From Gymnopus androsaceus JB14 (lineage: Eukaryota > Basidiomycota > Agaricomycetes > Agaricales > Omphalotaceae), in assembly GCA_009733575.1 (NCBI GenBank), contig ML769468.1:1-64000 (forward strand): a DNA stretch of 64,000 bases, given 5' to 3'. Positions 5,458 through 64,000 of this stretch are shown in pieces. The position numbers and the translations under genes were made by a program. Every line of letters starts with the position of its first letter. The stretch's first letter is position 1. The notes beneath the pieces are model-generated. The model saw nothing but the letters and a program-made list of their open reading frames with translations. It made no database searches and was not told where the DNA came from.

Positions 5458-6147
5458 CTATATCGCCCTGATTTTGATCACATGTCCTGCATTATTCAGC
5501 TGCTCATACAAAAATACAAGTTGCTGAATAATCTCCACAGATGAGAATGGGAATGGCATCATAATTGATGTCATCCCTGGGACGTTCAAAATGTAGTCCT
5601 TCCAGGTAACCGGCATGGAGGCGATGACAATCATCCTGAACTGGTAGTTGTTGCAGGTTCCACCGAGGTTATGGAGGGTTTTGAGCAGGTTCTTCATCCG
5701 TTTTTTGTGCTCCTCCATTGTCGTGGTGTCGGGGTTGAATTTATGTTCACGGAGGTCCGTGTCCGCGATGTGGATACGTTGCTCGTCTCGGGATTCGTAT
5801 TTCTTGGTAAGGTACTGCCACGTCTTGTGTGCAGTATCTCCTCATTCAATTCCAATGCCGATAGGATCAGTGCAGTTCAGGTAGATGATTGATGCTACCA
5901 TGCATTCACGTTGATTCCATTTGCCAGGGGAAGGGGATAGACTATCGACCGGTGATGCGGTTTGGGCCGTATAGATGTACGTAGCCGATGTTGGTTTGGG
6001 GATGGATCCATCGAGGTATCCATTCAAGCCCCTAACTTGTATGTTGAGCTTGACTTGGTCCTTGAAGGCCCATCAAGTATCCTGTCCTGATAGCTGCAAT
6101 GCTTCGGGGAATGAAGGTACATTCAGGAGTGAGTTTCCTGAAGACAT
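5458..6147 (-). pseudogene. Ty1/copia retrotransposon Gag (UBN2 type), decayed
   Basis: On - from ATG at 6147 the frame reads MSSGNSLLNVPSFPEALQLS, a TGA at 6073-6075, then VKLNIQVRGLNGYLDG, KWNQRECMVASIIYLNCTDP, a second TGA at 5842-5844, then LHNLGGTCNNYQFRMIVIAS and FLYEQLNNAG. These are the conserved Gag blocks of fungal Ty1/copia elements. Apart from the two TGA codons the frame stays open, so decay is modest. No protease, integrase or RT follows, because the sequence to the left is the rearranged transposase region, so the element is 3'-truncated. Confidence 0.85.
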
Positions 6148-6566: not shown

Positions 6567-6780
6567 TTGATTATACATCAGCAAAAACTGTTTTGAGCCC
6601 AGGAGGATCTAAGGTCACCCAGTCCTCTTAGGCAACCTGAGGTATCCTAGTTGGCCCAGGAAAAAGGGTAAAACTTTGGACACCTCAGGTATCCTAGTCA
6701 TCCTAGGTGTCCTGGGAGATCCTGGGATGTCTTGGGGCATCCTGGGGCATCCTGAGGCATCCTGAGGCATCCTGGGATAG
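6567..6780. mobile_element. element end replacing the 3' end of NLR copy 1
   Basis: CATCAGCAAAAACTG near 6567 matches the first bases of the TIR of the 771-bp element (CATCAGCAAAACCTG). It is followed by subterminal short repeats (CCTGGGGCATCCTG, ATCCTAG). The TPR array of NLR copy 1 breaks into these repeats at about 6780. No matching right end was found, so this is a partial element or a recombinant. Confidence 0.45.
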
Positions 6781-9734
6781 ATTGGCCATGGCATTCAAGG
6801 TATCTGGATGGTGGTCTCCAAGTGCTTGCTTGCGCAGTGGCAGCACCTCCTCTTCCAATTTCTCAGCTGCCTCCAACTTTCCAAGTTTCCAATATGTGGA
6901 TGCAAGATTGGCCATGGCATTCAAGGTATCTGGATGGTGGTCTCCAAGTGCTTGCTTGCGCAGTGGCAGCACCTCCTCTTCCAATTTCTCAGCTGCCTCT
7001 AACTTTCCAAGTGCATGATATGTGGCTGCAAGATTGGCCATGGCACTTAAGGTATGTGGATGGTTGTCTCCAAGTGCTTGCTTGCACAGTGGCAGCACCT
7101 CCTCTTCCAATTTCTCAGCTGCCTCTAACTTTCCAAGTGCATGATATGTGGCTGCAAGATTGGCCATGGCACTTAAGGTATGTGGATGGTTGTCTCCAAG
7201 TGCTTGCTTGCACAGTGGTAGCACCTCTGAGTCCAATTTCTCAGCTGCCTCCAACTTTCCAAGTGCCCAATATGTGGCTGCAAGATTGGCCATGGAAATC
7301 AAGGTATCTGGATGGTGGTCTCCAAGTACTTGCTTGCGCAGTGGCAGCACCTCCTCTTCCAATTTCTCAGCTGCCTCCAACTTTCCAAGTTTGCGATATG
7401 TGGCTGCAAGGTTGGCCATGGCATTCAAGGTATCTGGATGGTGGTCTCCAAGTGCTTGCTTGCACAGTGGTAGCACCTCCTCTTCCAATTTCTCAGCTGC
7501 CTCCAACTTTCCAAGTGCCCAATACGTGGCTGCAAGACTGGCCATGGCATTCAATGTATCTGGATGGTGGTCTCCAAGTGCTTGCTTGCGCAGTGGCAGC
7601 ACCTCTGAGTCCAATTTCTCAGCTGCCTCCAACTTTCCAAGTGCCCAATATGTGGATGCAAGATTGCCCATGGCACTCAAGGTATCTGGATGGTGGGCTC
7701 CAAGTACTTGCTTGCGCAGTAGCAGCACCTCCTCTTCCAATTTCTCAGCTGCCTCCAACTTTCCAAGTTTCCAATATGTGGATGCAAGATTGGCCATGGC
7801 CATCAAGGTATCTGGATGGTGGTCTCCAAGTACTTGCTTGCGCAGTGGCAGCACCTCCTCTTCCAATTTCTCAGCTGCCTCCAACTTTCCAAGTTTGCGA
7901 TATGTGGCTGCAAGGTTGGCCATGGCTCTCAAGGTATCTGGATGGTGGTCTCCAAGTGCTTGCTTGCACAGTGGTAGCACCTCCTCTTCCAATTTCTCAG
8001 TATTAATCCAGAGACCACTATCCTGAAATACTTTTGCCAGACAAATCTTTGTATAGACCATGAGTAAACTATTTGCCTGCCAAACATGACTGGCATGTAT
8101 CAATAACTGCCGACGAAACTGGTATTCCTTATTTGTATTTCCCAATGGAGTAGCCCGTGCAAGTAGTAATACAGCTGTCTGGCTCACATGCTCTTGACAT
8201 TCAACAGTTTCCTGGGCACATGCCTGTATTACTGCATGAAAATCAAGACATTTTTTAACAGCATTGTATGATGCCAGGGAAAGTTGGCACATTTCAACTA
8301 CACTGTCTTCCCACAGGTCTTCATCTTCAAACAGAGACAAAAACTCCTTCGTAAAATTTATGGCCTTGATAGGTGGATCCAAATCAGAAGCACTAGTATC
8401 ATTACCAGTGAAAGTAGCTGCCTGAGTGAAAATCTCCAAAGGAATGGCAGTTGAATTTAAATATGCACATATTTGCATAAGAAGCTGGGTGCGATGACTG
8501 AGTTTCTCAAAACTCAGATGAAAAGCACTATACACAGTCCTCTCATAACTATCCAGTGATCTCATTCTGTAATTAAGAATTTTCTTCTTTTTCTTATTAA
8601 AATGTGTCAAATAATTTTCCAGTGTACAGGTTGCAGTTGCCCCAATATATGCCCCAGCTGTTGAGACTGCTAATGCATGACAGCCAAGAGCCTCAACTAT
8701 CTTGAAAGCTAAATTCTGGTTTTCATTAGAGTTCTGTTTGTGTGCTTGTCTTAGAAGTAGCTCCACAGCACTTTCCTTTGTAAGATCCATCAAGTCAATG
8801 TGACAATCTGGAGATGCCATTTGTAATGTCTCAGAGAGGCGGCTGGTAACAATCACACTACCATGGTTGCAAATGGGGACATAGTCCTTGAGAAAGACAT
8901 TTTTATCATCTGCATTGTCAAAAATGCAAAGCCAATTCTCAGTCATCCTTGCTAGGAAATCTCTGACATCTTTGACATTTTCACCAATGCTTGCAACTTG
9001 TCCAAGTTCCTTAAAATTGGCAGTCAGGGTGTCATTGGATGATGCATCAAAAAACCAAATGTTTGAAAATCTGTTTAAATATTTAGTATCACCTGTTGTT
9101 TGGAAAATCTCTTTTTTCCTTACCTGGACAAATTCTCAGAAACAAACTTGAGAACTGCTTGTGTTTTTCCAGTCCCTCCATTTGCCACAAGTGTGACTAC
9201 ATGCTTTCTAGCATCAAGGACCCTTTCAACAGAATGCAACAGCTTGTGCACTACTTGTTGATTGGCTTCATTGGGCAGGTGAAAAACCAGAGAAGCAGAA
9301 GATGTCAAAGATGGTTGTGTGGTCATCACAAGTACAGGAGCATAAGGAAGTGTATGAAGGTATTTTGAGTCCACTGGTGCATCTGCACTTTGCAGAACCA
9401 ATAGGACATCAGGCTGAGCCAAGGCACTTTTGTTGATCATGTTTGCAATTGATTTGGCTAAAGCTTGACCAGAGCTTGCATCCAGAAAAATGGGGGAGCT
9501 GCTATACTGAGTACTTGAACATCCTCCTCCATTGAATACAACTTACTATTTGAGGTTCTGTCTTACAAAATCCTTGAGTGCATCCATGTTTGTACCCCAG
9601 AGAGTCACTGCTGGTGCAGAAAATATTTTTGAAAGTTTTCTCAGTATATCTTCCCGCCCAACAAAGTATGGGCTAGGTGCAGGACATTGGAGCACATTTG
9701 AAATTGAAATAACCTGACCTGTTCGTGCATCCAT
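6703..9734 (-). CDS. NLR-type STAND protein: pseudo-NTPase + NB-ARC + TPR array (copy 1)
   Basis: Exons 9734-9547, 9501-9124 and 9070-6703 join in frame to give 977 aa. In order: YFVGREDILRKL; a P-loop-less NTPase-like segment (VTLWGTNMDALKDFV, IFLDASSGQALA, DVLLVLQSADAP, APVLVMTTQ); a complete NB-ARC with Walker A NGGTGKTQ (about residues 169-176), FFDASS, Walker B NWLCIFDNADD, GSVIVTSR and GCHALAVSTAG; an all-helical linker; then nine full and one partial 42-aa TPRs (EKLEEEVLPLRKQALGDHHP..). Fungal NLRs of this type act in non-self or heterokaryon recognition; that role is inferred. The usual first exons (9938-9800) are decayed, so the start used is an ATG inside the old intron 2. The C-terminus is truncated by repeat sequence (SQDASGCLRMPQ..) ending at 6703. 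Confidence 0.85.
6781..8003 (-). repeat. 126-bp TPR-coding tandem array, copy 1
   Basis: Nine complete and one partial 126-bp units are nearly identical at DNA level. Differences concentrate in a few codons: the residue before AMANLA, and the pair after TY (RK, WA, WK or HA). Long + strand open frames across the array are shadows of this periodicity. Such high internal conservation is characteristic of fungal NLR repeat domains that exchange units. Confidence 0.92.
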
Positions 9735-9799
9735 TCAACATTGAAATTAATAGGATAGTACTATTGGTTTACCATGATTTGAAGGCTGAGGAGCTCCAT

Positions 9800-9938
9800 G
9801 ATGTATGACATTACCAGTAGTGAAAATTGAGTTTCTGATTTCAAAGTTTGATGCATCCAGCAAACATTTGTGGTCTAAATGATGAATCTTCCAATTAAAT
9901 GCTGCTTCTAGCAATAAAGAGACCTACGAGGATGCCAT
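9800..9938 (-). pseudogene. decayed first exons of NLR copy 1
   Basis: Compared with copy 2, exon 1 (ATGGCATCCTC, 9938-9928) and its donor are preserved. Exon 2 has an extra base (GCTGGATGCATC versus GCTCAAGCATC), which gives a TGA after about 12 codons. The acceptor before exon 3 has changed from GCAG to GCAC. The N-terminal NFQITGQPIFTT-type segment is therefore lost from copy 1. Confidence 0.7.
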
Positions 9939-10001
9939 TTCACAACCAGACAGTAAGGGTGGTTTGGGCGGAATGAATTATGAAACTGGCACGGTGGCAC
10001 C

Positions 10002-14017: not shown

Positions 14018-17000
14018 CTAGTCCTCTGCTTTGAACTTCGAAGGGGAAGACACCATAGGGTGACCTGCAGTAGAGCCTGAACCCTCTGAAATGTCAGTAG
14101 CCACTACTTGCTTATGCAGAAGCAACTCTTCTTCCAATTTCTCAGCTGCCTCCAACTTTCCAAGTTTGCGATATGTGGCTGCAAGGTTGGCCATGGCTCT
14201 CAAGGTATCTGGATGGTGGTCTCCAAGTGCTTGCTTGCGCAGTGGCAGCACCTCCTCTTCCAATTTCTCAGCTGCCTCCAACTTTCCAAGTGCATGATAT
14301 GTGGACTGCAAGATTGGCCATGGCTCTCAAGGTATCTGGATGGTGGTCTCCAAGTGCTTGCTTGCGCAGTGGCAGCACCTCCTCTTCCAATTTCTCAGCT
14401 GCCTCCAACTTTCCAAGTGCACGATATGTGGCTGCAAGATTGGCCATGGCCCTCAAGGTATCTGGATGGATGGTCTCCAAGTGCTTGCTTGCGCAGTGGC
14501 TAGCACCTCCTCTTCCAATTTCTCAGCTGCCTCCAACTTTCCAAGTGCATGATATGTGACTGCAAGATTGGCCATGGCATTCAAGGTATCTGGATGGTGG
14601 TCTCCAAGTGCTTGCTTGCGCAGTGGCAGCACCTCCTCTTGCAATTTCTCAGCTGCCTCCAACTTTCCAAGTGCCAAATATGTGGATGCAAGATTGGCCA
14701 TGGCCCCAAGGTATCTGGATGGTGGGCTCCAAGTACTTGCTTGTGCAGTGGCAGCACCTCCTCTTCCAATTTCTCAGCTGCCTCCAACTTTCCAAGTGCC
14801 CAATATGTGGATGCAAGATTGGCCATGGCCCAAGGTATCTGGATGGTGGCTCCAAGTACTTGCTTGTGCAGTGCAGTACCTCCTCTTCCAATTTCTCAGC
14901 TACCTCCAACTTTCCAAGTTTCCTATATGTGGCTGCAAGATTGGCCATGGCTGTCAAGGTATCTGGATGGTGGTCTCCAAGTGCTTGCTTGCACAGTGGC
15001 AGCACCTCCTCTCCAAATTTCTCAGCTGCCTCCAACTTTCCAAGTGCCCAATATGTGGCTGCAAGATTGGCCATGGCATTCAAGGTATCTGGATGGTGGT
15101 CTCCAAGTGCTTGCTTGCGCAGTGGCAGCACCTCCTCTTCCAATTTCTCAGCTGCCTCCAACTTTCCAAGTTCCCGATATGTGGCTGCAAGATTGCCCAT
15201 GGAAATCAAGGTATCTGGGTGGTGGTCTCCAAGTGCTTGCTTGCACAGTGGCAGCATCTCCTCTTCGCAATTTCTCAGTATTAATCCAGAGACCACTATC
15301 CCAAAATATTTCTGCCAGACAAATCTTTGTATAGACTGTGAGTGAACTATTTGCATGCCAAACATAACTGGCATGTATCAACAGCTGACGACGAAACTGA
15401 TATTCCTTGTTTGTATGTCCCAGTGGAGTAGCACGTGCAAGTAGTAATATAGCTGTCTGGCTCACATACTCTTGACATTCAACAGTTTCCTGGGCACATG
15501 TCTGTATTACTGCATGAAAGTCAAGACATTTCTTAATAGCATTGTATCGATGCCAGGGAAAGTTGGCACATCTCAACTACACTGTCTTCCCATGAGTCTT
15601 CATCTTCAAAAAAAGACAAAACATCCTTCATAAAATTTATGGCCTTGATAGGAGGATCACATCAGAAGCACTAGTATCATTACCAGTGAAGGTAGCTGCT
15701 TGAGTGAAGATCTCCAAAGGAATGGCAGTTGGATTCAGATATGCACATATTTGCATAAGAAGCTGGGTGCGATGACTGAGTTTCTCAAAACTCAGATGAA
15801 AAGCACTATACACAGTCCTCTCATAACTATCCAGTGATCTCATTCTGTAATTCAGAATTTTATTCTTTTTCTTATTAAAATGTGTCAAATAATTTTCCAG
15901 TGTACAGGTTGGAGTTGCCCCAATATATGCCCCAGCTGTTGACACAGCTAATGCATGACAGCCAAGAGCCTCAACTATCTTGAAAGCTAAATTCTGGTTT
16001 TCATTAGAGTTCTGTTTGTGTGCTTGTCTTAGAAGTAGCTCCACAGCACTTTCCTTTGTAAGATCCATCAAGTCAATGTGACAATCTGGAGATGCCATTT
16101 GTGATGTCTCTGAGAGGCGGCTGGTAACAATCACATTACCATGGTTGCAAATGGGGATGTAGTCCTTGAGATAGACATTTTTATCATCTGCATTGTCAAA
16201 AATGCAAAGCCAATTCTCATTGTTCCTTGCCAGGAACTCTCTGACATCTTTGACATCTTCACCAACCCCTGCAGCTTTACCAAGTTCTTTGAAATTGGCA
16301 GTCAGGTTGTCATTGGATGATGCATCAAAAAACCAAGCATTTGAGAATCTGTTTAAATATTCAGTATCACCTATTGTTTTGAAAGTCTTTTTTCCTCACC
16401 TGGAAGAATTCTCAGAAATAAACTTGAGAATAGTTTGTGTTTTTCCAGTTCCTCCATTTGCCACAAGTGTGACTACATGTTGTCCAGGGTTGAGAGCCTT
16501 TTCAATAGAATACAACAGCTTGTTCATTTCTTGTTGATCTGCACAATCAGGAAGCTGCAAGGTAGTAGAAGATTCAACAAATGACTGTGTAGTCATTACA
16601 ACCACTGGAGCATATGGAAGTCTGTCAAGATATTCTTCTACTGGTGCATTTGCATTTAGCAGGACTAGGAGGTTATTTCCACAGATATCGTGGGTGATGT
16701 TCTCTGCCACTGATTTGGCTAATGCTTGATGAGTGCTTGCATCCAAAAAAATAAATGAACTGCTGAACTCAGTAAAGCAATATCATCCTTCATTAAATAC
16801 AGCTTACCATTTAAGGTTCTGTCTTACAAATTCTTTGAGTGCATCCATGTTTGTACCCCAGAGAGTCACTGCTGGTGCTGAAAATGTTTTTGAAAGTTTT
16901 CTCAATATAACTTCCCGCCCCACAAAGTATTGGATAGGTGAAGAGCATTTGAGAACATTTGAAATTGTAATGACTTGACCTGTTTCTGCATACATCAGCA

Positions 17001-36587: not shown

Positions 36588-36941
36588 TAATTGGGTGCTG
36601 TGTTTTCTTGAGGAATGGCTATATATGAGTAGAGTATTTTCCGTTTAAACTACTTTTTGATTCATTATTGAACGACCGGAACGGACTGAAATCCCAGATT
36701 ATATTTATTGGCTTTTTTGCTGGAAGTGACTGGACGTTCAGATAGTTGCAATTATTTTACGAGGTGAGCTTATCTTGAAAGAAGGGATGTTTAGAGTTGT
36801 CGCTACCCTGTGGCCTTCCCTCGTGAACAAAGTCGAGCGCTTTGTTCACGAACGACAGATATTGGATCGAGTCGGTTTTCAAATCATGTTATCAATACAA
36901 ACTTTGTTTTTGGCAGCGAGTCGGTACTTATATCTACCAAA

Positions 36942-39900
36942 TTATACATCCATAGCACTCAGTGCATCCAACACCTCGATCTGCCTCTGCACGACTTTGT
37001 CCATATCTTCTTTCGTCACAACGTCCGGATCGTAAGGACAAATAAACATAACCATTTCCTTCCTGATGTGGATCTCCACGCATAGAGGAAGATAAACACC
37101 CACAATAGTCTGCGACAGAAAACTGCCAGCAAATATAGATTTTACACCGTCCTTGTCCTCGACAATCTACAAATCTTATCAGAAACCACATCCTGAGCAG
37201 CGACAAAGAAGGAGAACTGACCTCAGTCTCTGTTTCAGATGAATTATTGCTCAACTCCCCGCCACTCATGTCCAATATGTTCAAGACAGAAGTTTGGAAT
37301 TTTCCTCCCTTCACTACCTTTGGTTCCAAAACCTCCGCTGCCACTTCAATCCCTTGGGCCATTGCAGGCAATGTATTCGCAAAGTTCCTATTGGCGTCTT
37401 TCACAACCTCCAACAGCTTGCTCAAATACAGGCCCTTTTCTGTAGTCTCCGATTTTGTAGAAACGAGAGCAGGGACGGGCACTCGCAGAACATCCATATG
37501 TGTGCAGAAGCCCCACACTTCATTAACCCCAGCCGCCCCTCGGCCCTCGACCGTCTCATAAACAAGAACATCACTGTTTCTGTCCGCGATATCCATCACA
37601 CACTCGTCCTGCCGCTCCGCTATGGCGATAGCATAAGCGGCTCTCAGTACTGCCCCTTTCGTCACTCCAGCCTTCCTCGCTACACTGGCAAGATCGCCTA
37701 CCCATGGTGCAACGCTAAACTGGAATTTCGCAAGATCCTAAACTAACTTTTGAGTATCCCACCCTAATGTCCTTTGGAGATGAAACTAACCTTTGAGTAT
37801 CCCACCCTAACATCCTTTGGAGATGGCCAAACAGGAGGCTGTACATTAGCCAGGTAGTCCTCCCAAAAGGCTTTGTTGGTGGTACTGGAAAGAACATTGA
37901 TATACATGCCAAATGAACTGCGAAGGTTACGCTTGGTGGAAAGACTGTGGATGGCCTCAGGACCTTGATGGTAAAGAAGAGAGAGTTCTTTCTCTTGATA
38001 ATCGAGGGTTTTTGCCGTCATAAAGAGAATGATGCCTGGATGAAGCAAAAGTCCACTTTTTACTCTCTTCATCTAGGATTAGCCAATTCTTTAGTGGAAC
38101 AACTCCAAGGACCAGCCTGTGTTCTCCAAATACTTCTTGGACCTTTTTTTCTACCTCCTTTCCATCCGCAAGCTTCATCACTTCCAATGTTGCATTTCGC
38201 CCTTCTAGGACCTCCCTCGTAGGACGCAAGACAGCGGGTGTGACAAGACCCGAACCAGGTATTTTAATGAGTACAGTCCGAAGAGACGGTTCAATAAGAC
38301 AAAGTTGTTCCCATGCTTGGGCAAAACGAGAGGAATCAATATCAGTGCCGAGATTGTGCTGAAATTGACAGATGAGAGAACGTCCTTCATTCTGGAGTGC
38401 TAATTCAGCCCACCCGCGCGCGGTAGTACTGAAAGGATAAACATCCTCGACATCTTCTACTTTTAGGCCCACCGCCTTGATACCTTCCTCCCATCCCACA
38501 GGAGAAAGGAGGAAGGGAGAATATTCTGGCTGGTTACCAAACTCTCCGGTCATTGTAGAGGATGTGGGCCGGCGAGCTTGGATACGAGGTAGTTGAGCAA
38601 ACATAGCCAGAGTTTTGCGGTCATCTAGACAATCGGCGACTGTGGCTCCAATTCCGCATGCTTGGAGAGCAGTGGTAACACGCATAGCTTGAAGAGAGGT
38701 GCCACCAAGCTGGATGAAGCTAGCATCAAGGCTGATTGTTTCTGGACCTTGACCTAACACTTGGGACAGAATTGAGACAATAGTGTGCTCGGTTTCTGTG
38801 GTTGCCTTGCGAATGGGAAGATCTTGGAGAGAGATGAGTTTGGGTGAAACCTGAGAGGACAAAAGACTGTACCGTCAGGCATTTGAGACTCTCTTATCGG
38901 GGTGATACCATGCAGCTTAACTCTACGCAAACAAAATCAGCGGAAACATTTAATCAAGTGTAGAAGGCTTACTCCTGCACAACACTCTTGAGAGCGCGGC
39001 GGTTCAGCTTGCCATTGGGATCCTTTGGAAACGAGTTCAAGCACAGCCATATCGTCGGCCTCATATACTTGGGTAAGAACTTCTCGCACGCCTCCTCTGC
39101 ACTCTGTACAACACTCTTCACCTTTTCCTCTGACAAAGGAATGACCCACATATCACTATGACCTGCAATTGTCTGTCTCTCTGTCGCCGGAACCGCTTCA
39201 GGACGCAATGTGAACACGGCGACCAAAACCTGTTCACCATCGCTTTTATGTACATCCGCGTAAACCGCCAGAACGTCCTTATGCGACTGCGACACCACCG
39301 TCTCAATCTCACCAGTCTCTAGCCGCATGCCTCTTATCTTTACTTGCCCATCCATCCTTCCCATAAAGTCGATCATCCCGTTTCTATTCCACTTGCCCAA
39401 ATCGCCACTGCGGAACATCCGAGCACCGTAAATTTTGGTGAAAGGATCTCGAACGAATTTGGCAGCGGTGAGAGTAGGGTCGGACATGTAACCTCTAGCA
39501 ACCTGAGGCCCACCAATGCATATTTCTCCTACTTCACCAATGGCTGAGAGGTCGTTGGTGGATGGTCGGAGGATATAAATGTTGTTATGTCCGATGGGAA
39601 GACCGATTGTGACCCGTTCTCCGAAAGAACTGACAGTCGAGGGAGAGGGAATCAACCACTCCGTCGAAGAAACAGCACATTCGGTAATACCAGACGTACT
39701 CCAAACTTCTCTGTTCTGGCTTAAACGGGCGGCGAGATCCACGGGAAGGGTCTCCCCTACAAAGTTGATATGTTTAAGAGAAGGAAGGCCGTCCGAAGGA
39801 ATTTGATGAGCTACAGAAGGCGTAATGCACAGATGGGTAGTGCGAGTCTCCGCGAGCCAGAATGGCAGGTTTGACAGGATCTCGTTGCGACGAACGAGGA

Positions 39901-42182
39901 CGAGGGTGTTGCCACTGGTCAAAGTGGAGAAGATGTCACCGACTGAAACGTCAAACATGTAAGGTGACAAAAGGAGTTTTCGCATCCCAGGACGAGTGTT
40001 GAAGTCTGCCTGGCCAGAGTGAGCAAAGGCAGAGATATGGCGATGCTCAACGCCGACACCCTACGTGAAGTATTCATCAAACGGTCATTCCTAAAGTTCA
40101 AGTGGAGAACACAAACGCACCTTTGGAACTCCAGTACTGCCACTCGTAAAGATAACATACGCGAGGTTTTCACCGGCTACTACGGGTAGAGATTTTGAAG
40201 AAGAAAAGGAGGAAATGGCGGTACGCTCCACATCATCGACTGAGACGCGGGTAGATTTCAGCGGAGGAAATCTCTCCTTCAGCTCCGCTAGGCGAGGCGA
40301 TGGAGTTCCCGGCCCATATAACAACGTCTTTCCACCAGCCACTTCCAAAATCCGTGCCATCCGTTCAAAGGGAAGATCAACTGCAAGAGGAACTAGAATG
40401 TACCGTGCATCAGAATCTAATAACTTATACGCGATAAAGTGAACTCACCATATGCCCCTCCAGCTTTCAGTACAGCCAGAATAGCAATAATCATTTCAAA
40501 AGAAACATCGAACAAGATGCAGACCATATCATCCGGCCGAACACCCATCTCATCTCTCAATTTAAATGCAAGGATGGTAGATCTAATGTCCAACTCCTTG
40601 TAAGACATGGTGCTCTTTCCTTCGAAGTCCAATGCGTGTGCATCAGGATTCGAGCGCGCAATCTTCTGGAACATTTCGTGAATGAGAGGGTAAGAAGGGG
40701 CGACGGTGTCGAGCGCCAAGTTATTAAGAGGACCAACACCGAAACGGAGGGTTCGGGGAGCATCGATTTGACCTAAACGACGAAGGACATCTTGGACTGT
40801 GGTATACCGTTGGGGAGCTGGAATGGCCACTCTGGAATCCAGGGAAGAAAGGATACCAAGAGTAGAAACAAAGTGGTCAAGGAAAGAACCAACATTGACA
40901 TATGAAGAGATAGAGGGATCGTAGCGGATGCGAATCTGACAAGCACCATTACGAGGGGGGAATACATCGATGCTCAGAGGAGTACCATGGTGGGTCCAGT
41001 GATCCTAGAAACAAGTACCAAAGGTCAGAAAACATCAGACGATATACGCAAATCACATACAACGAACTGCCATCCAGGAATGTCATCATTTTTAAGCCAG
41101 AGAGGTGCACCATGTACAGTTAGAAAAACGCGAACTTTCTTGGCGGCCTTACCCCCAATAGACTCTAAAATTTGACCCAGTGACATCGGACACTCATTTA
41201 CAACCTTTTCCATCTCCTTACTTTCGGCATTACCTAGGAGCTGCTCAAGTGTCGTAGATGAGCTAAAAGCCAACCTTACAAGTTCGGATGACAAGCAGGG
41301 GCCAAGGATATGCTGAAGGTGGGAAGGCAGAAAAGATCGCGAAGACAGTGTTTCGCAGAAGAGGTGATCGTCGAGGCCCGAATGTATAGACATAGTCAAT
41401 GCCAGCGCTGCACGTAATGTCCGAGAACGAAGAGCTGGGAGATCGGCAGGAATGGAGCAGTATTGGGAAAGAATTTCCGAAGAAGCAGATGCTCGGGACT
41501 GCACGGAAGAAGAAATAGGCCACAGTGCATCGGGTAAATCCTTAACAACTCGACGCCAATAATCGCGCGCAGCGATTGTAATTTCCTGAGCATTGATAGC
41601 AGCGGCTACAGATGCGAAGGAGGTATGAGGAGGTATGAGGCTGGTACGAGACAAGCCTTGGTGGTAGAGCGCGTTTAGTGACTTCATTGAGATGATCACG
41701 CTCAGTTCATCGAAGATGGATAGATGGAAAGCGAATCTGGCATGGTAGCCCGCCCTGGGGTTTCCAACAACATGTACCGCGACCGGAACGCGGCCGGAGA
41801 ATGGCTCAAAGGCCAGATTGTGAATGAAGTTGAGCCCTGTGGCCTGCATCCCGGTTTCTTCGAGTTGGTCCTGGATATCCTGGATCCACGCATGGCGCGG
41901 AGCATCAGTTTTGTACACCACAGCAAGGATACCTTGGGCAGATAGGACAAAACCAGTGCGAAGGGTTGACGCTGCACCGACCACAGCGTCCCAAGAAGCA
42001 TGGAGGCCATCAAGATTTGTATGAGGAGGCAAGTAGATGTGATAAATGGATATGAAAAAGCGGCCAGAAGTTGTGGCGCCATGAAGAACACCTTGTTGGA
42101 ACTGAGTAGCAAGATAAATGTCCTCAACATGGCGAAGATCAATTCCGGCCTCTGCGACCAGGTCGGAATACGCGGAGGACAT
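36942..42182 (-). CDS. nonribosomal peptide synthetase, C-A-T-C
   Basis: About 1,600 aa on - from ATG 42182 (an ATG at 42242 is also possible). The first condensation domain (EDIYLATQFQQGVLHGA) has a degenerate active site (FHLSIFDEL instead of HHxxxDG). The adenylation domain shows LAVLKAGGAY, YVIFTSGSTGVPK, MFDVSVGDIFSTLTSG, SGITECAVSS, FRSGDLGKWNRNG, MDGQVKIRGMRLETGEIE and PNGKLNRRAL. The carrier domain has LGGTSLQAMRV. The second condensation domain (EDVYPFSTTARGW) has a canonical HHSLYDG and ends VVQRQIEVLDALSAMDV at 36942. No thioesterase or reductase is present. A single-base gain in an A5 run (+ strand T5 at 38009-38013), right after HHSLYDG, breaks the frame. The intron 37738-37790 is built from a tandem copy of the exon edge. 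Substrate and product are unknown. Confidence 0.85.
37738..37825 (-). repeat. 43-bp tandem duplication forming an NRPS intron
   Basis: Copy A (37740-37782) and copy B (37783-37825) are adjacent direct repeats with three mismatches in 43 bp. On -, the donor lies in copy B (CTCAAAG/GTTAGTTT) and the predicted 53-nt intron (37790-37738) is the last 8 nt of copy B, all of copy A, and AG. Splicing joins VRVGYSK to DLAKFQFSVAPWVGD in frame. Confidence 0.85.
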
Positions 42183-43274
42183 GGTTCTAGATGACTGTGA
42201 GTTAGAAGATGGAACGGTTAAGAGCAAATGTACCGTATACATAGTAATTCTTCTCGAATCCTCAAACTGATTCCAGGCTCTGCTCTAACCAGGACTGAGC
42301 GGACGAGCCAGCTCGTGATATCCAAAGGCAATGCAATGCCATATTATCACCATTATATTGGATCCTAACATCGTCGGGATGGATTGGAAGGAGAAGCGAA
42401 AGATGCATCAACGCCATCTATCAATGGTATCATCATCCATCATCTTGCTTTTCTGTAATGAACTTTAATGTTTTTGGGCGCTCTCCATATGATTCTTCGC
42501 GATGAAATACAGGAAAACGCAGAACGCCGAGAATATTAGTCGAAGATTCAGTTGAGACCAAAACTGAACGGAAGACCTTTCTGTCCTCAAACACATCTCC
42601 CGCCTTGCTTGTCAGTGGTCACCCAGCTACCGGAGATATATTATGCAGTTTTTATGTCGATAATATTGTAGTCCACAGGCTTCATCCCGAGGACTGAACT
42701 CTCCAACAACTCACCGATCATCCCGAGGCAAGGAGGGAGGGAAGGAGCCGAAAATTTGAATACTCTGAGGTTCAAGATCTCATGCATATGCGTTTTACCA
42801 TTGCCATGTCGTTTTCAAGATTTCTTGTTTCAATTTACGCCTCGCTATAGGAGCCCACCCGCGTAGAAACCGGGCTTTAGTGAACGCTTTTTTTGGACGA
42901 ACTTTCACAGCCTGAGTGGACGGAGGATTTCCGCAAATTTCCTCTCTGCGTAGGCCTAATCTGGTATGTTCAAACTTCAAACTTTAATTTTAACTGTTCC
43001 AGTTGTTTCAAAAAACCTACCGGTAGGTTTGTCAAAAATCGGTGGCAATATTGCTACCATCGTCGCAGTAAATTTAATTATGTTGTCCCTGAATTCACCA
43101 ATTCCACCGCACGCCCGACGGTCTGCAGTTTTTCCAATCTTTCGACCGTGTGCTACATTGCGGGTAGGATCATCAAATGCGATGGAAAGGAGAAGGAGTG
43201 GAACAAACATCTTTCATTGAGTAGGTGTATGTACACTATCCAACGACTTCTACTGTATCAGACATCTATCGTCG
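42183..43274. other. intergenic, NRPS upstream region
   Basis: About 1.1 kb between the NRPS start and the amidase stop. Several short open frames occur, none with recognisable features. It presumably contains the NRPS promoter; no motif is distinctive enough to call. Confidence 0.4.
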
Positions 43275-45479
43275 TTAACTGCTAACTTTCAGAGCAGCAT
43301 CTACAATTTCCCCCATGGCAATCACAGCCTCCTCCTCCAATGTCCGTCCTACTACCTGAATACAAACTGGAGCGTTTACAAAGTTCGCAGGGTTGTCTAA
43401 GATGCGTTCAATACCATACTGCGAACCAATAGTTCTGAAGTGACAAAACTCACAGAGTTCGTAGTTAGCCTTGTCCATTTCATTGTAGAACTCGTGTGGT
43501 GCTTTGACGACGTCGATTTCTGGATCAACCTTGGAAACTGGTATGACAAGGGCACTGTAGTCGAGCAAGTTGAAAACCATTGTGTAGTTCGCCGTCCTGA
43601 AAAGAGCAAGTTCATTAACGTTAATACAATAATCAAAATAGAGTCGTCACTTGTTTTTTCCGTGGCCGATAGCAGCATAGTTTGCGACTGGCGAAATGAT
43701 AGCATCGACAGCTCGTCCGGTACTAGTCAATTTGCGTGAATCTTCCCAATGACGCAAGTACTCTTCACGAAGCGCTGTCTTTTTCTTTTGCACTTGCCAA
43801 AGTTGATATGCAGAAATACCACCGGACGCATGGCGAACTTCGGTTTCAATTATCTCGTCCTCTAGGGTCATACTTGCAATCACTGGCTCGCCAGACGGTG
43901 TAGTGACAACTTTGTAGTCTTCTTCTGCCCCAGCATCCCATATGTCCCGCTACGTGGATTAATTTACTCTGGTCGACTAAGCCAACGAACGAAAGAACCA
44001 TACCACGCAGAGACAGATTTCCATGTGCTTTAGCGGATTCCAGTCAATCACTAGCCAAGGACAATTTAATGCCAACCTAAGCAAGACCGATGAATGACCT
44101 CACCTTCATGTCCAGCATCTAACAAAGCCTTCTTCACGATCTGGAGACCTCTTATAATGGGTGGGTGGGGAACAATGAGACCATCATCCCACATAATTGC
44201 AAAGCATAGTTTTCTTCCCAAACCATGTTCGACCAAGTTGTATTCATCGTCGTTCCAGGGTTTACGCACCACGAGAGGATCTTTCAACCATGGACGAGCA
44301 CCAGCGACGGCTTTCATGAAGGTCTTGATTCCCGATATGCTGTTCGAGAGCGGTCCTAGCGATGACAGGATGGAATCCTGGCCTTCGAGAGTATTGACGC
44401 AACCTGAATACGGCACTCGCGAATATGAAGGTTTCAGTGCATATATCCCACAGAATGCTGCCGGGATGCGAATAGATCTAAGGAAAAATAGTTAAAACGA
44501 TACAAGCTGGCTTTGCTCAGGCGTACCCTCCAACATCGGATCCAATACCTACAGTAACAAACCATGTCAATAATATGATACTGAATATCGACCAAGATGA
44601 CATACCAAGCGGACTTCCCCGCATTGCTATTAAAAAAATCAATGGATGAGTTTTCTATGAATCGGAGTAGAACTGCATATACATACCTATCAAGGCCCCT
44701 TCACCCCCAGATGAACCCCCAGGTGTCAGAGAACAATTATGAGGATTTAACGTTCGTCCAAAGACATGATTGAAGGTTTCGGGCCACATCAGAGTTTGAG
44801 GCACGTTAGTTTTGACCTGAAATCGTCAGTGTGTATTTCAACCTACTTGAGAGACTAGCTTTTACAAATGGTACTGCTCCGACGCTCTCGAGAATGTCGG
44901 TGATGACTGCGTTCTGCTCCGCAGGTTGGCCTATCCAAGATACATACCCTTTAGGGTAAATTAAGCGACAATCTGAGAGAAAATGGGGCAGAACCATACC
45001 GATGCAAGCTTCCAGTCCCTTTATATTGATTTGATCTTTCAACGATACAGGAAGACCGTGAAGAGGTCCTACGACTGTGCCTGTTCTATTCAAATGGTCA
45101 TCCAACTCCGCTGCCCGAGCGAGAGCTTTCTCGATAAATATTTCAGTCAAACAATTGGTCTGAATGTTATTATCAGTCGCAGATATCCCCCTCGAGTGAC
45201 TGACTGACTCACCAACTGGTGCGCGATAATAGCTCTCTTGTAGAATGCAGTTGTGACAGAGACAGAGGTCCATTGGCCTTTCGCCAACTTCTCCAACAGA
45301 ATATCTACATCCGAATTTGTGATCTCGAGCTCAGTAGCCTCAAGCAAGCCACAAGTTTCCGGAATGTTCAACACATCGATCTCACTGGGAGGTGGTGCGC
45401 GATCCAGAATCCACTCCTTGGGTATCAGAGCTTGTTGCTTTGATTTCTTCGCTGCAGCGATTGCTTTCCAATCTGACAT
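43275..45479 (-). CDS. amidase-signature family amidase
   Basis: Hydrolyses an amide bond with a Ser-cisSer-Lys triad. On - from ATG 45479 (MSDWKAIAAAKKSKQQALIP): the N-terminal helical segment LEKLAKGQWTSVSVTTAFYK; catalytic Lys in GLPVSLKDQINIKG; the glycine/serine loop LTPGGSSGGEGALIAM; the nucleophile segment GIGSDVGGSIRIPAAFCGIY; then PLSNSISGIKTFMKAV, and a C-terminus with PVCIQVVGRTLEEEAVIAMG, stop at 43275. About six introns are needed; the junctions I checked restore frame (for example YEL/Y at about 43440). All triad residues are present, so the enzyme should be active. It may act on an NRPS-derived amide or in nitrogen use; neither is shown. Confidence 0.88.
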
Positions 45480-46072
45480 AGCTGAGGAAGGGGAAAGATA
45501 GCACGAAATTTAGACAATGACATTGTCCATAAGTCAACTGCATCCCGATCTGATAATCTGATTCGAGGAAGGACGTCGGAGTTATTAGGCTGAGCAAACG
45601 AGCCAGTTCGAGATACATTGGGATAAGGATCATTATGATACGCAAAATGCGGACTTACCGCAAATACACTATCAGTCGGAGCCCCGAAACAATCTGCCAG
45701 CTACAGCCAGATATCACAGATTATTTCGTTCCACTAGTACATTCTCGGGAAGTACATTCTCGGGAGATGTTGATTGGAGATGTTGATAGGATGACTGATC
45801 AACGGGGGACGAAACTGAATCACTGAAAGATGTATCCTCCCCAAACGGGCAAATTTCTTCTGCCACCGTATTGAAACAGTGCTGGGTCAACCGTAACAGC
45901 CTCAGACGTTATACAGAACTTTCCAAAGTTCGAAATCAACTTCTCCCGCCAATCTCCCGCGCGCGCGCTGAGGAGCAAATTCACTAGAATAGTCATGCGT
46001 CGATATCGTGAGCTTCTATATCCAAGTGGATTCACTACAATGTAATTGCAGACACCAATGCCTGAAATTATT
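45480..46072. other. intergenic with small repeats and an unexplained - frame
   Basis: This holds a 15-bp tandem pair (AGTACATTCTCGGGA, about 45738-45767) and a - strand frame at 46035-45820 ending VDPALFQYGGRRNLPVWGGY. That frame looks protein-like but is too short and is not joined to a gene. It might be a relic exon. Confidence 0.3.
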
Positions 46073-47832
46073 CTAAGAAGAAACCGAGCGCGAAGTTATT
46101 GTCAGAAGACACTTTCCATCTACAGGATGCAATGAAAGCCACTCTGTAGTCTCATGCATCCTGTTCTCCTTTGCTGGCTTGATAAAATAGTCAAGAAAAA
46201 GCCATGCAATGTTATACCTCATCTGCATCCAAGCTAAATGCTGCCCTATGCAAACTCTTGGACCTGCGGCAAAGGAGAGCATGGACGCCTTCATATCCGG
46301 CGTCTCGTTCTCCTTTGACCATCGTTCAGGTATGAAAGAGTCCGGATCAGCAAAGACTTCACTGTCGCGATTAGATGTTCCGGGAGGGATGAGTACTGAC
46401 GTGTATGGAGGGATGATAAATCCTTCGATGTGAATATGACTGCCATCAGATTCAGATGAAACGGTAGTGCGTGGTATAGGTCCTGGGATCGCGGGATAGA
46501 GACGCAGACCTTCTTTGATAACCCAAGTGAGGTAATCGCAATTTTCGAGTGCGCGAATATCTAGCTGTCTATGCCGCTCGTCTTCATCATGAAAAACTGA
46601 AGCTAACTCGGCGTGGAGCTTTTCTTGTGCAGTAGGGTTTATTGAGAGTAGCCATGCAATGAAACAAGTGGAGAGTACAACAGTATCGCCTCCTGCGACG
46701 ATGAAAGTGAGCCCAAGTACAAGGAAATCAAAAGGTTCGTCGGACCTGCGACTATGAAAGTGATCACTTCACTCTTCACGGTACCAATGTCCAGTCCACT
46801 TTCAAGCGCAGTGCGAAGGAGAGAGGGAGGTCCAGAAGCAAGTTCCTCCACTAGTTTATTGTTGGAGAGAGATCTTGCTCGATCTGCCGTGACTCGTCCA
46901 AATTGTTCAGGGACCACAAAAGCCTGTGCGAGCTTGTCATCAATAATCTGAGAAATAGTTAAGCATATGAATGCTGCTACTAGGAGATGTGTGTTTCATT
47001 GACTTACTGCACGAAGCCTTCTCGCAGATCCAAGACCCAAGATTCGGTTTCTGAAGAACGACGACTTTGAGATTAGGTGATGGACTGGACCAAACACCAT
47101 CTCAAGTAGGCCATCCCCAAAGAAAAAATCCACTGCATCAGGGATGGTTACGTCGAGATCATCGCTCTGGAAGTACTTTTCGACGAACGCAGGGTTGAAA
47201 ACAATGCTGGCAATGGAGTACAGAGCACTGGAACGAAGGGGTTGCATGATATCGGTATCAAAGGTAGTGGACTCCGATACGGCAACGGAGGCAGAAATAC
47301 TTTTTTTGTGTATTACCAAGCGAAAGTGCTCCATAAAGCTTCCAATACGTTGGAAGCGATGAATATGAAGATTGGTCGAAGAAAAGAGGGGTCCATAAGA
47401 TCGTCGACGCGCCATGGCAGTTTTAGAGTCATTGATACTGGGAAGATTACGTCCAGAGTTTCCACCCAGTAAGCAAAAGACATCTGCAATCTCGGGATCT
47501 TTGTGAAGAACGTTGTGAGGTAAGGTACCGTAGACTACACGGGAAGCGTTGGGGCCATAGATTGAAATGAGATTTGGGCCAACAACAATGGCGCGACTGT
47601 TGTAGTGGACGTGAAGTTTGTGAACCCATGCACCATTATCTCCCTTGAACATATGAAGAAGAAAGGCCGCACGAGAAAACCGACAGTAGACAGGGCCAGG
47701 AAGGTGGCATAACTTGAAGGGATTCCCAATCAAACCTGCGACAATGAGGAAATAGAGAATCGGCACCACTCCACATAGTGCTACAGTATAAGCGGTCATC
47801 TTGAATCGTGACTGCGAATAGTCTAGTGCCAA
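46073..47832 (-). CDS. cytochrome P450 monooxygenase
   Basis: A membrane-anchored haem monooxygenase of about 545 aa. An N-terminal TM anchor (TVALCGVVPILYFLIVAGLI) is followed by CHLPGP, a C-helix-like segment (MARRRSYGPLFSSTNLHIHR), the I-helix FIVAGGDTVVLST interrupted by an intron between AG and GDT, the ExxR motif in VIKEGLRLYPAIPG, the PERF-like DSFIPERW, and the haem loop FAAGPRVCIGQHLAWMQM with the ligand Cys. The start at 47832 (MALDYSQSRFKMTAYTV) was chosen over the internal Met at 47799. The stop is at 46073. It is divergently arranged with the terpene synthase, sharing a 536-bp gap that probably holds both promoters, which suggests oxidation of the terpene product. Confidence 0.88.
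46692..46763 (-). repeat. 19-bp direct repeat bounding the P450 I-helix intron
   Basis: CCTGCGACGATGAAAGTGA (46692-46710) and CCTGCGACTATGAAAGTGA (46745-46763) are direct repeats with one mismatch, offset by exactly the intron length (53 nt; intron 46745-46693). The intron's 3' end is thus a second copy of the codons for TFIVAG. Confidence 0.85.
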
Positions 47833-48368
47833 GAGATATTAAAGGTGAAGGTACTCCCGATGGCAGTAATGTGAAGAAGGTCGTATGACCAATTTTCCTA
47901 CCAACAAAACCGACCTCGTAAATAGGCTGTAGGCTCTGTTCGGGACTCAAATCAATGATCACTTTGCTGTTTTTGTGCAGGGTAGATAGGGTGGCATGCG
48001 GGCATTGCCGTGGACCACCGGGGATTCCTGTCATTCAGCCAAATTCCACTGGAAGGAGATACTGTTACGATTTATTATGATTGTCTCTGCAAGATGATTG
48101 CTGTGGTTCCCCAATCCACTGCCACTGAGATCTGTGATCCAAATACGAGGACATCGGCAACATTAACTAGTCGTATCCTCTGCAATACCGTTACTAGTAG
48201 TGAAAGAGGAGAAGAAAAGAATTATAATACATACTAGCCGAAGGCCCAAAGCCATTTAGCCAGATATCCGTCGCGCCCGTGATGTCGGCCCATTGGAGTA
48301 GAATCAATCGAGCTCATGCCGAGTCACACTATAAAAATGTTGTTGGTCAAGTGGTATTTCCGCGAACG
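47833..48368. promoter_or_regulatory. shared P450 / terpene synthase divergent promoter region
   Basis: A 536-bp gap between the two head-to-head start codons. It contains scattered short open frames but no supported gene. Specific elements cannot be assigned by eye. Confidence 0.45.
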
Positions 48369-49657
48369 ATGAAAGTAATGACCACAGACAGTAGATCTGA
48401 TTCGGCTTCTCCCACTCTCAAGAAAAATATGTCGAAAGACTATGTCCGTCGTCTTGAACTCCTCCTTCGCGAAATTGATCATCGATACATTGCTCCTCAA
48501 CCACCTTCAGTGAACTTCCTTCATTCCCATCACGGCTGGATTCATAACACGCTCGGGCCCGTGATATCATGGACTACAGCCAAGCTCGAGATCCTTGAAG
48601 ACTCGTCCTCGGCTGTCATCGAACGGGCTTACCCTTTCGCAGACACCGAAATGAGGATTCTCTTGGGGAAACTTACCGCCCTGGTGATCGTCATAGACGA
48701 TTCAATGGACAACGAAACCATGTACGAAGAGATCGCGAACTTCGCACATCGTCTTTACATTGGCGAGTCTCAGCAATCTGGCATACTCATTCTCTACCAC
48801 GAATGCATAAAAGAGCTCTCGCGTGTCCACGAAGGAGATGCAGTGCAAAGGGGGTTGGCAGTTATACCCTGGATCAATTTTGTAGACGCATGTCTCTTGG
48901 AGAAACGTCTCCTGACCGTAGATACCGAGCTGCGTGCCAGTCCCTATGATATGGGCTACCAACATCTTGCGAAACAGCGGCATCACGGCAAAAGTCATGC
49001 AGCCCGAGAAACCTCGTCCGGAGCTACAATTCAATTGTAAGCTGAAGATACGGCCCTTGACATTTCATTCTAACTGGCAAGGTATTGGTTTACAGCCCGC
49101 ATTATATTCGCTACAAAACCGGCCTTGGCGAAGCATATGCTGCTTCCATATTTAAAGCGACTAAAGAACAACACTTACCATTGTCAAGGTATATCATGGC
49201 ATTGCCTGACATGTCATTCTACATCGTGAGTTACTACTTTGCGACTCTGGGCTCGAATGCTCACTTTTTTTGTGTATAGGAAGTCATGAACGATCTCCTT
49301 TCCTTTCACAAGGAGGAGCTTTCCGGCGAAACCGTCAACTTGATTCACCTACGGACACAATCGCTCAAGGAGTACAGAGGAACGGGTGCATGCGGAGAAT
49401 GGACGATATCAGATACATTTAGCCTATTGTGCGACGAAGTGAGGGGTGCCACGTACAGGATAGATGAGGTTCTGAGGCTGCAAGACTGCGAGAGAATAGT
49501 GAGCGAAGGATTGGATGGTAAGGATATGGGACTTTCAGAGGTTGATATGGCAATTGCATTCCAATGGCGAGGGTTCAGAGATGGATATATTTCGTGGCAT
49601 CTAGAGTCACAGAGGTATAAGCTGGACTTTATCCGGCCTAAAAAGTTTGATGTTTGA
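48369..49657 (+). CDS. sesquiterpene (trichodiene-synthase-like) cyclase
   Basis: A class I terpene cyclase, probably acting on farnesyl diphosphate. Exons 48369-49036, 49096-49225 and 49280-49657 join in frame to give 391 aa. The first metal-binding motif is VIVIDDSMDNE. The second intron-flanked block (FPHYIRYKTGLGEAYAASIF) matches the trichodiene synthase family, and the NSE-type motif is NDLLSFHKEE. The C-terminal part (RDGYISWHLESQRYKL) lacks a conserved RY pair in its usual form. The length is typical of TRI5-like enzymes, which are abundant in mushrooms. The product is unknown; similarity to TRI5 does not mean a trichothecene pathway, and none of the other TRI genes are here. Confidence 0.87.
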
Positions 49658-54053: not shown

Positions 54054-54716
54054 ACGTGCATTGCATAGATAGACATATATTTCTTTGAGCTCATACGTGT
54101 TGGACAGTTTATTATTCCAGGTAAGATAACATGTTATATTATTTCAAGTTGATACAGTATTATATACACGAAGACAAGGATATTTAGGACAACCACAGAA
54201 GGATGAATTCTCCACCTAAACAGAAGAGTTCGAATCTAGAGGTAGACCATCCAGTCGTTGATTAGACGACTAGAATACGTTGCTTTTGGCACATCACCAG
54301 AACCAAGTAGTTGTGGAAGTATAATGCACTACTCGGGCAGAAAGTGGCCTTGTTTGTCGAGAAGAGATGCGGGGACAACCTGGACTTCAGGTGAAGCAGG
54401 GCGGAATGTAAGAATAATATCACACGAATGGAGGCGATGAGGAAAATGAATGAATGGGGAGAAAAGAAAAGACTGCTAAACTTGACACGAAGTCGAAACT
54501 ACACCATTAAATGGCATTCTTTCAATAATGGAGGACGAAAGATTTTTTACAAGATGAGGGCAGTAAAGAATGAAAATTTTCTTACAGCGAGCGCTATTTA
54601 TACGAAACCGGCACCGGGAAACAAACACGACCACACTTGGCCGACGCGTGTGGTGCAATTGGGCGCCTGTCCCAAGTCATTGATCTTTATGTTCCACTCT
54701 CTCGCGTTCACGCTTC
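54054..54716. other. intergenic between CBS and TEL1
   Basis: About 660 bp of A/T-rich sequence. The largest open frame (54428-54745, +) overlaps the TEL1 start and has no recognisable feature. Confidence 0.4.
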
Positions 54717-63700: not shown

Positions 63701-64000
63701 TCTAGGACTCGGCGACCGTCACACCAACAACATCTTAATGGATAACATCAAGGGTGAAATTATCCACATTGACCTGGGTGTGGCTTTCGATCAAGTGAGT
63801 ATAATGCACGTACATGGTGCAGATATTTACTTACTTTAATTGTAGGGGAAGCTTCTTCCTGTCCCCGAAACTGTTCCATTTCGAATGACACCCGACATGG
63901 TGGATGGAATGGGGATCTCGGGAACGGATGGCGTCTTCCAACGTTGTGCTGAGGAAACCCTCCGAGTTCTCAGAGACGAGTCTGACGTTATCATGACCGT
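54717..64000 (+). CDS. TEL1: TEL1/ATM checkpoint kinase (3' end beyond window), several frame breaks
   Basis: A PIKK-family kinase for DNA double-strand-break signalling and telomere maintenance. ATG 54717 opens a TAN-type N-terminus ([39 protein letters not shown]), followed by long HEAT-like helices, a FAT region ([39 protein letters not shown]) and the kinase domain ([20 protein letters not shown], catalytic [14 protein letters not shown], metal-binding [11 protein letters not shown]). The FATC end is outside the window. Most introns splice cleanly. Four single-base breaks are well located: T4 at 55961-55964, about 56706, about 62159 and 62691. Four more are probable near 55800-55830, 56605-56640, 59940 and 60160. 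The frame is otherwise conserved with no isolated nonsense codons. Confidence 0.9.

Follow-up and report, generated by a model that had tools for sequence, protein, structure and literature searches.

The window analyzed here, 64,000 nucleotides (nt) of Gymnopus androsaceus JB14 (positions 1–64,000 of contig ML769468.1, part of an 83-Mb assembly), encodes on its minus strand, at positions 6703–9734, a receptor of the STAND NB-ARC/tetratricopeptide repeat (TPR) type, a fungal NOD-like receptor (NLR) in which the nucleotide-binding domain (NBD) has been duplicated in part and in tandem. The two copies show complementary losses, and the arrangement is retained under purifying selection in many copies of the gene. 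We regard it as likely, with a probability of about 0.7, that the upstream copy (hereafter the block) is a dead NBD acting as a built-in, nucleotide-independent partner of the live switch that follows it. The duplicated part would run approximately from VGRE, or the first strand, to sensor 1, without the ARC region; the block, having lost its P-loop, Walker B aspartate, and sensor-1 arginine, would retain its fold and its VGRE arm, and the downstream copy would retain every nucleotide motif but no VGRE. NLRs are usually treated as proteins with a single nucleotide switch, and a lineage with dozens of receptors carrying a dead second NBD makes a contribution of NBDs beyond nucleotide binding testable.

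Origin of the Block

The block is a copy of the live NBD. When a profile of 39 block sequences was compared by hhalign with a profile of 46 live-NBD sequences, the match reached a probability of 97.6 (E-value 4.2e-12, score 71.9), the maxima among 200 column shuffles being a probability of 4.2 and a score of 20.6; the preliminary description of this DNA, in which the first segment had been aligned with the second, is thus borne out. The block profile also matched the NB-ARCs of other families, with a probability of 97.8.

Gene structure points the same way. Each copy has a phase-2 intron immediately ahead of its F(L/F)DASS strand, the second strand of the NBD: intron 1 (9502–9546, minus strand, 45 nt) in the dead NBD and intron 2 (9071–9123, minus strand, 53 nt) in the live one. 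Counted in this gene from the split codon to the aspartate, the two spacings differ by one residue. Donors, like intactness, splice signals, and substitution ratios below, were examined in the best 30 of 46 genomic matches. A pattern search found a phase-2 GT donor at the same place for intron 1 in 26 of the 30 loci and a phase-2 donor for intron 2 in 20; in the remaining loci it found none or, once, a different phase, and at L032 and L034 the frame is open across the intron 2 region. In this genome, L003 and L006, two NLR loci with a single NBD, show a frame break at the equivalent place, with a phase-2 AG|GTAT that was read from three-frame translations and is unlisted by the donor pattern. 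Because these two loci carry the break, the intron appears to predate the duplication and to have been copied along with the domain.

All blocks fall into a single clade, with a support of 1.000, in a tree built from 106 columns of 19 block, 19 live, and 12 outgroup sequences. Mean identity of a block to its own live partner is 0.233 and to other partners 0.224 (19 of 46 rows), and there is therefore no sign of within-gene exchange between the copies. Block-bearing relatives, 38–56% identical to the query, occur in Rhodocollybia, Armillaria, Stygiomarasmius, Lentinula, and Collybiopsis, which with Gymnopus makes six genera; given this spread over five further genera and the single clade of blocks, the layout is probably older than these genera.

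Motifs Lost and Kept

Motif counts refer to 38 of 46 aligned rows (37 database proteins and this gene), the other eight (P0008, P0009, P0012, P0020, P0038, P0045, P0046, and P0047) having fewer than 80 aligned block residues, with models truncated in the block or lacking it. A reading of the P-loop in 48 family proteins excluded P0029, P0030, and P0041, whose models have no P-loop, and P0053–P0063. In this gene, the first strand of the dead NBD and the site of the lost P-loop read AVTLWGT (9591–9611, minus strand; residues 42–48), and the stretch from FLDASS (residues 68–73) through LLVLQSAD (96–103) to VLVMTTQ (119–125), at 9315–9488 on the minus strand, holds a degenerate Walker B and sensor 1. 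GKT/S was found at the block's P-loop place in none of the 38 rows. The Walker B position is occupied by glutamate in 28 rows, glutamine in 9 (this copy among them), and lysine in one, never by aspartate; the position of the sensor-1 arginine holds threonine in 36, lysine in one, and serine in one, never arginine. Judged by these motifs, the block probably has no working nucleotide site. All three elements had been described beforehand as gone, which is correct for the P-loop and the arginine; for Walker B it fits the glutamine of this copy and the missing aspartate, but, glutamate being present in 28 of 38 rows, the acid is more often weakened than gone.

The live NBD holds P-loop, Walker B aspartate, and sensor-1 arginine together: GGTGKT (9162–9179, minus strand; residues 171–176), FFDASS (195–200), and, at 8839–8928 on the minus strand, CIFDNADD (237–244) to VIVTSR (261–266). 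The P-loop at the GGTGKT place is present in all 38 rows, and the Pfam NB-ARC family matches this domain at 29.2 bits (cut-off 23.5). It is followed by an ARC/winged-helix region and by a C-terminal sensor, whose 126-nt units translate as TPR-type repeats; TPR families were detected in seven of eight relatives scanned, the exception, P0073, being truncated. The N-terminus is short in the Gymnopus copies, and the relatives P0073, P0033, and P0036 give matches to MLKL_N or SesA, all below cut-off. Amyloid-like motifs are described in the N-termini of Agaricomycete NLRs, including those of Gymnopus luxurians, in the available text of PMC9815663.

The VGRE motif (FVGRE, 9651–9665, minus strand; residues 24–28) precedes the dead copy. 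Among the rows with a letter there, its glycine is present in 35 of 35 and its arginine in 32 of 35, and mean column entropy is lowest in VGRE, at 0.66 bits, compared with 1.05 in the core of the live NBD and 1.84 in that of the block. An FxGR-like motif was found in none of the 38 linkers before the live P-loop, where the stretch often reads FxLPD. Eight NB-ARC loci were fetched among 21 genome matches; L001, L004, and L005 belong to this VGRE–dead–live family, and L002, L003, L006, L007, and L008 have FTGR 28–35 residues upstream of the P-loop. Within the family, the statement that VGRE stands solely before the dead domain can be upheld. In five Collybiopsis proteins (P0037, P0039, P0040, P0042, and P0043), the end of the FLDASS strand reads INGKS/T-like instead of LDASS; these GKS letters occupy the position of DASS within the second strand and not that of the P-loop.

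Copies and Selection

Searching the genome with exon 2 gave 46 matches, all free of internal stops; 43 of these cover 110 or more of the 127 residues. Contig C110 holds three matches, and C17, C24, C86, and others hold two each. VGRE, block, and live NBD were all seen in 29 of the best 30 loci. The ratio of nonsynonymous to synonymous differences (pN/pS) over all pairs was 0.42 for the VGRE piece, 0.62 for the block, 0.46 for linker and P-loop, and 0.27 for the live NBD; over 14 disjoint nearest pairs the values were 0.63, 0.46, 0.50, and 0.31, respectively. Since its ratio lies between that of the live NBD and 1, the block is constrained, though less than the live NBD.

Predicted Fold

Template-free prediction of the block alone gave a five-strand fold resembling P-loop NTPases, with a modest Z, and in the full-length model the block and the live NBD show the same predicted strand–helix order except for one helix absent from the block. 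The block is thus predicted to be NTPase-like, as had been supposed. Sorted by title, 40 of the 50 Foldseek rows are AAA+ or STAND proteins; the remaining 10 comprise nucleotide kinases, proteins of helicase type, and one of unknown kind. The structures matched by the block include dynein motor entries, the part matched being presumably the non-binding AAA6 module.

A Pfam scan of 16 members found no other known domain in the block: the best match was Barstar, in two members, at 19.8 bits (cut-off 23.4) and over part of the profile, and the next-best family reached an E-value of 0.012 in one member. The block profile gave seven matches at E ≤ 10 among PDB sequences, the top one being a designed Rossmann-type protein (E-value 0.084).

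Proposed Mechanism and Alternatives

As in a normal STAND switch, the TPRs of this receptor would read the ligand and its live NB-ARC would perform ADP/ATP exchange and oligomerization. We propose that the dead NBD would sit as a wedge with the VGRE arm on one side and, on the other, the live NBD, on which it would pack, and that it may set the threshold of oligomerization or the geometry of the ring, or tune release, while the VGRE arm would still complete the live nucleotide site. The position of the arm and the regulatory role of the dead NBD are what we infer; a more specific version, which we hold tentatively and at less than even odds, is that a single nucleotide site is split over two domains, the VGRE arm reaching back to the live NBD with the dead NBD as a lever, and that dead-before-live receptors arose separately in grasses and in marasmioid fungi.

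Several observations weigh against the dead-partner reading. In the tree, the place of the blocks beside the outgroups has a support of 0.33, too low to show whether the block came from the family's own NBD or to date or root the duplication. Over all pairs, evolution is faster in the block than in the live NBD (0.62 versus 0.27), which makes its constraint moderate, and the exon-1 VGRE piece, at 0.63 over the 14 nearest pairs, lies above the block, so that the two VGRE measures conflict. As for structure, every VIA Z for the block is below 8, which according to the tool may reflect just a common arrangement, and Foldseek with the block alone returned no match at E ≤ 0.001, the best being 7.8e-3. 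The predicted local distance difference test (pLDDT) score near VGRE is 66 (residues 51–60, full-length model), and many rows of the full-length structural matches have a root-mean-square deviation above 5 or start in the low-confidence N-terminus; because VIA gives ranges only, and because of these poor rows and the middling pLDDT, the placement of VGRE is indirect. Finally, the block is missing from the sequences of two database proteins, P0020 and P0045, although P0020 is contradicted by its own DNA.

Four other explanations were weighed. The block could be a true tandem module, with VGRE as its own structural arm, forming a recognition or decoy surface outside the live switch that mimics an NBD attacked by parasites. 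The faster evolution of the block in a multi-copy, partly clustered family would suit such a role, but pN/pS stays below 1 and conservation is highest in VGRE, which is also poorly ordered in the block-only model (pLDDT 55–59, residues 101–120), a weak argument since the value is 66 in the full-length model; we consider the decoy unlikely. That the block is a non-functional relic spread by recent gene amplification would agree with the lost nucleotide motifs and with a constraint weaker than that of the live NBD; it is made very improbable by the absence of stops in all 46 matches, the open frame of the block, flanked by two live parts, in 29 of the 30 loci inspected, the pN/pS of about 0.5–0.6, and the presence of the block in five further genera at 38–56% identity.

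Residues 1–165 might instead have another known effector fold, Barstar-like or otherwise Rossmann-like, with a mere resemblance to an NBD, as the Barstar matches and the designed protein at the top of the PDB search could suggest. Barstar was rejected, as were other effector folds, the Pfam matches being partial and below threshold, and, given the profile match to two NB-ARC sets, the shared intron phase and place, the strand order, and the structural matches, this explanation is the least credible of all. The mature mRNA might also skip the block, leaving an ordinary single-NBD NLR: P0020 joins VGRE straight to the P-loop, the Tetrapyrgos protein P0045 reads alike, and L015, the locus of P0020, has both splice dinucleotides that skipping requires. 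However, the DNA of L015 holds the complete block, the family's blocks are under coding constraint, the GT is absent in 5 of 29 loci read (L019, L033, L035, L036, and L037), and the acceptor AG is replaced by CAA in 8 of 30 loci and by AGA in one. A block-skipping isoform, whose required splice signals are not conserved over the 30 loci, was rejected and seems highly improbable.

Gene Structure and Neighboring Sequences

Splice sites were read from the DNA letters alone, not from cDNA. Spliced accordingly, the gene would form a single open frame of 977 residues from three coding pieces and two short introns on the minus strand, reproducing the coding pieces placed earlier and their order of VGRE, P-loop-less block, NB-ARC, and TPRs. 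Exon 1 as first read (9547–9734, minus strand) encodes an N-terminal linker and the VGRE arm, followed by the dead NBD's first strand and helix; exon 2 (9124–9501, minus strand), the remaining dead NBD, a linker helix, and, from the live NBD, the first strand, the P-loop, and the helix; and exon 3 (6703–9070, minus strand), the live NBD from FFDASS, the ARC/winged-helix-like region (DUF7779-like), and the TPR array. The array (6779–8000, minus strand; TPRs from about residue 547) consists of 9.7 copies of a 126-nt (42-residue) unit with 92% matches and adjoins a repeat with a 10-nt unit at 6691–6777, which provides the final codons of the frame.

The coordinates 6703–9734 given previously stand; the 3' end reads into this last repeat, and the start is doubtful. 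Judged by the paralogs, the ATG at 9734 is probably intronic, as is the stretch of exon 1 preceding GQVISIS, and the true 5' exon would lie further upstream: VGRE is at residues 50–79 in near paralogs with a full N-terminus and at residue 24 in the first-read frame. In the paralogs, an extra 5' exon encodes a sequence like MFAGASNFEIRNSIFTTGNV; because MFAG and ASNFEIRNS sit in different frames in this copy (9735–9960, minus strand), the 5' end of the gene looks broken, or an alternative start is used.

A second family member, 61% identical over exon 2, lies at 14159–16761 on the minus strand, with VGRE (upstream of 16761), dead NBD, and live NBD; because its reading frame breaks downstream of the live NBD, it may be a pseudogene. 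The public protein P0009 is a chimera of these two neighboring genes, joined over about 7 kb (16596–6841): it starts with the neighbor's second exon, to which it is identical by eye (from 16596 downward), and the rest is exon 3 of the present gene (9075–6841, 99.9% identical). P0020 omits the block that its locus holds complete. P0009, being chimeric, and P0020, skipping a block present in its DNA, are thus unusable as evidence of single-NBD forms. Because the block is overlooked in two public gene models and by the Pfam scan of 16 members, the spread of the domain may be underestimated.

Elsewhere in the window, an open reading frame (ORF) adjoining the gene (5458–5841, minus strand) resembles a retrotransposon gag, presumably of the copia type. 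ORFs lying side by side at 36934–49040 resemble, as we take it, a non-ribosomal peptide synthetase, an amidase, a P450, and a terpene synthase, possibly a secondary-metabolite cluster. A long run of ORFs at 54684–63839 on the plus strand ends in what we take to be a PIKK-like kinase motif, perhaps of a DNA-damage kinase.

Comparison with Known Systems

Catalytically dead AAA+ modules occur in multi-module machines such as dynein, where the fold is retained and the nucleotide site lost beside live modules. The block differs from these in that there is no evidence here of AAA+ ring helices or of a shared descent of the loss. Like canonical fungal NB-ARC-TPR NLRs, the present gene has a live NB-ARC with P-loop, Walker B, and sensor-1 arginine followed by TPRs, but those have one NBD, as do L002, L003, L006, L007, and L008, which lack the inserted block. 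In the accessible text of a survey of fungal NLRs, noncanonical P-loop variants are mentioned and a duplicated NBD is not (Dyrka et al. 2014; PMC4986451).

The closest counterparts are in plants. In the rice coiled-coil (CC)-NBS-NBS-leucine-rich repeat (LRR) proteins BPH18, BPH26, and Pib, the first nucleotide-binding site (NBS) comprises the NB sub-domain only, part of ARC1 and all of ARC2 being missing, its P-loop is far off consensus, and a complete NBS comes next, according to the portions of PMC5041133 available. Pib has an intron at corresponding places in both NB-ARC domains, and the kinase motifs of both domains are highly conserved among its alleles (PMC4917536, in part); a wheat Pm40 candidate also has two NBS domains (PMC8508864, in part). 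Compared by descriptions rather than by sequences, the fungal gene resembles the rice trio in its partial first NB with an aberrant P-loop, followed by a full NB-ARC. It differs in its short N-terminus and TPRs, where the rice proteins have a coiled coil and LRRs, in its host kingdom, and, as far as the Pib description extends, in the intron place, which is 3' of kinase 3a in Pib and, in the fungal gene, after the P-loop helix and before the second strand. The fungal family shares the Pib/BPH18 layout and, with TPRs and no LRR, is not a member of that group. A search of the open-licence literature with narrow terms, covering partial texts, found no fungal report of a dead NBD joined to a live one; the preliminary description, which knew of no such layout in fungal NLRs, therefore stands for fungi as far as seen, although the layout itself is known from rice, with which it is perhaps convergent. 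The NB-NB layout of BPH18, BPH26, and Pib, itself unexplained, thus gains a counterpart in fungi, and, if the split-site version is true, a dead NBD before a live one would be a recurrent way of tuning NLR switches.
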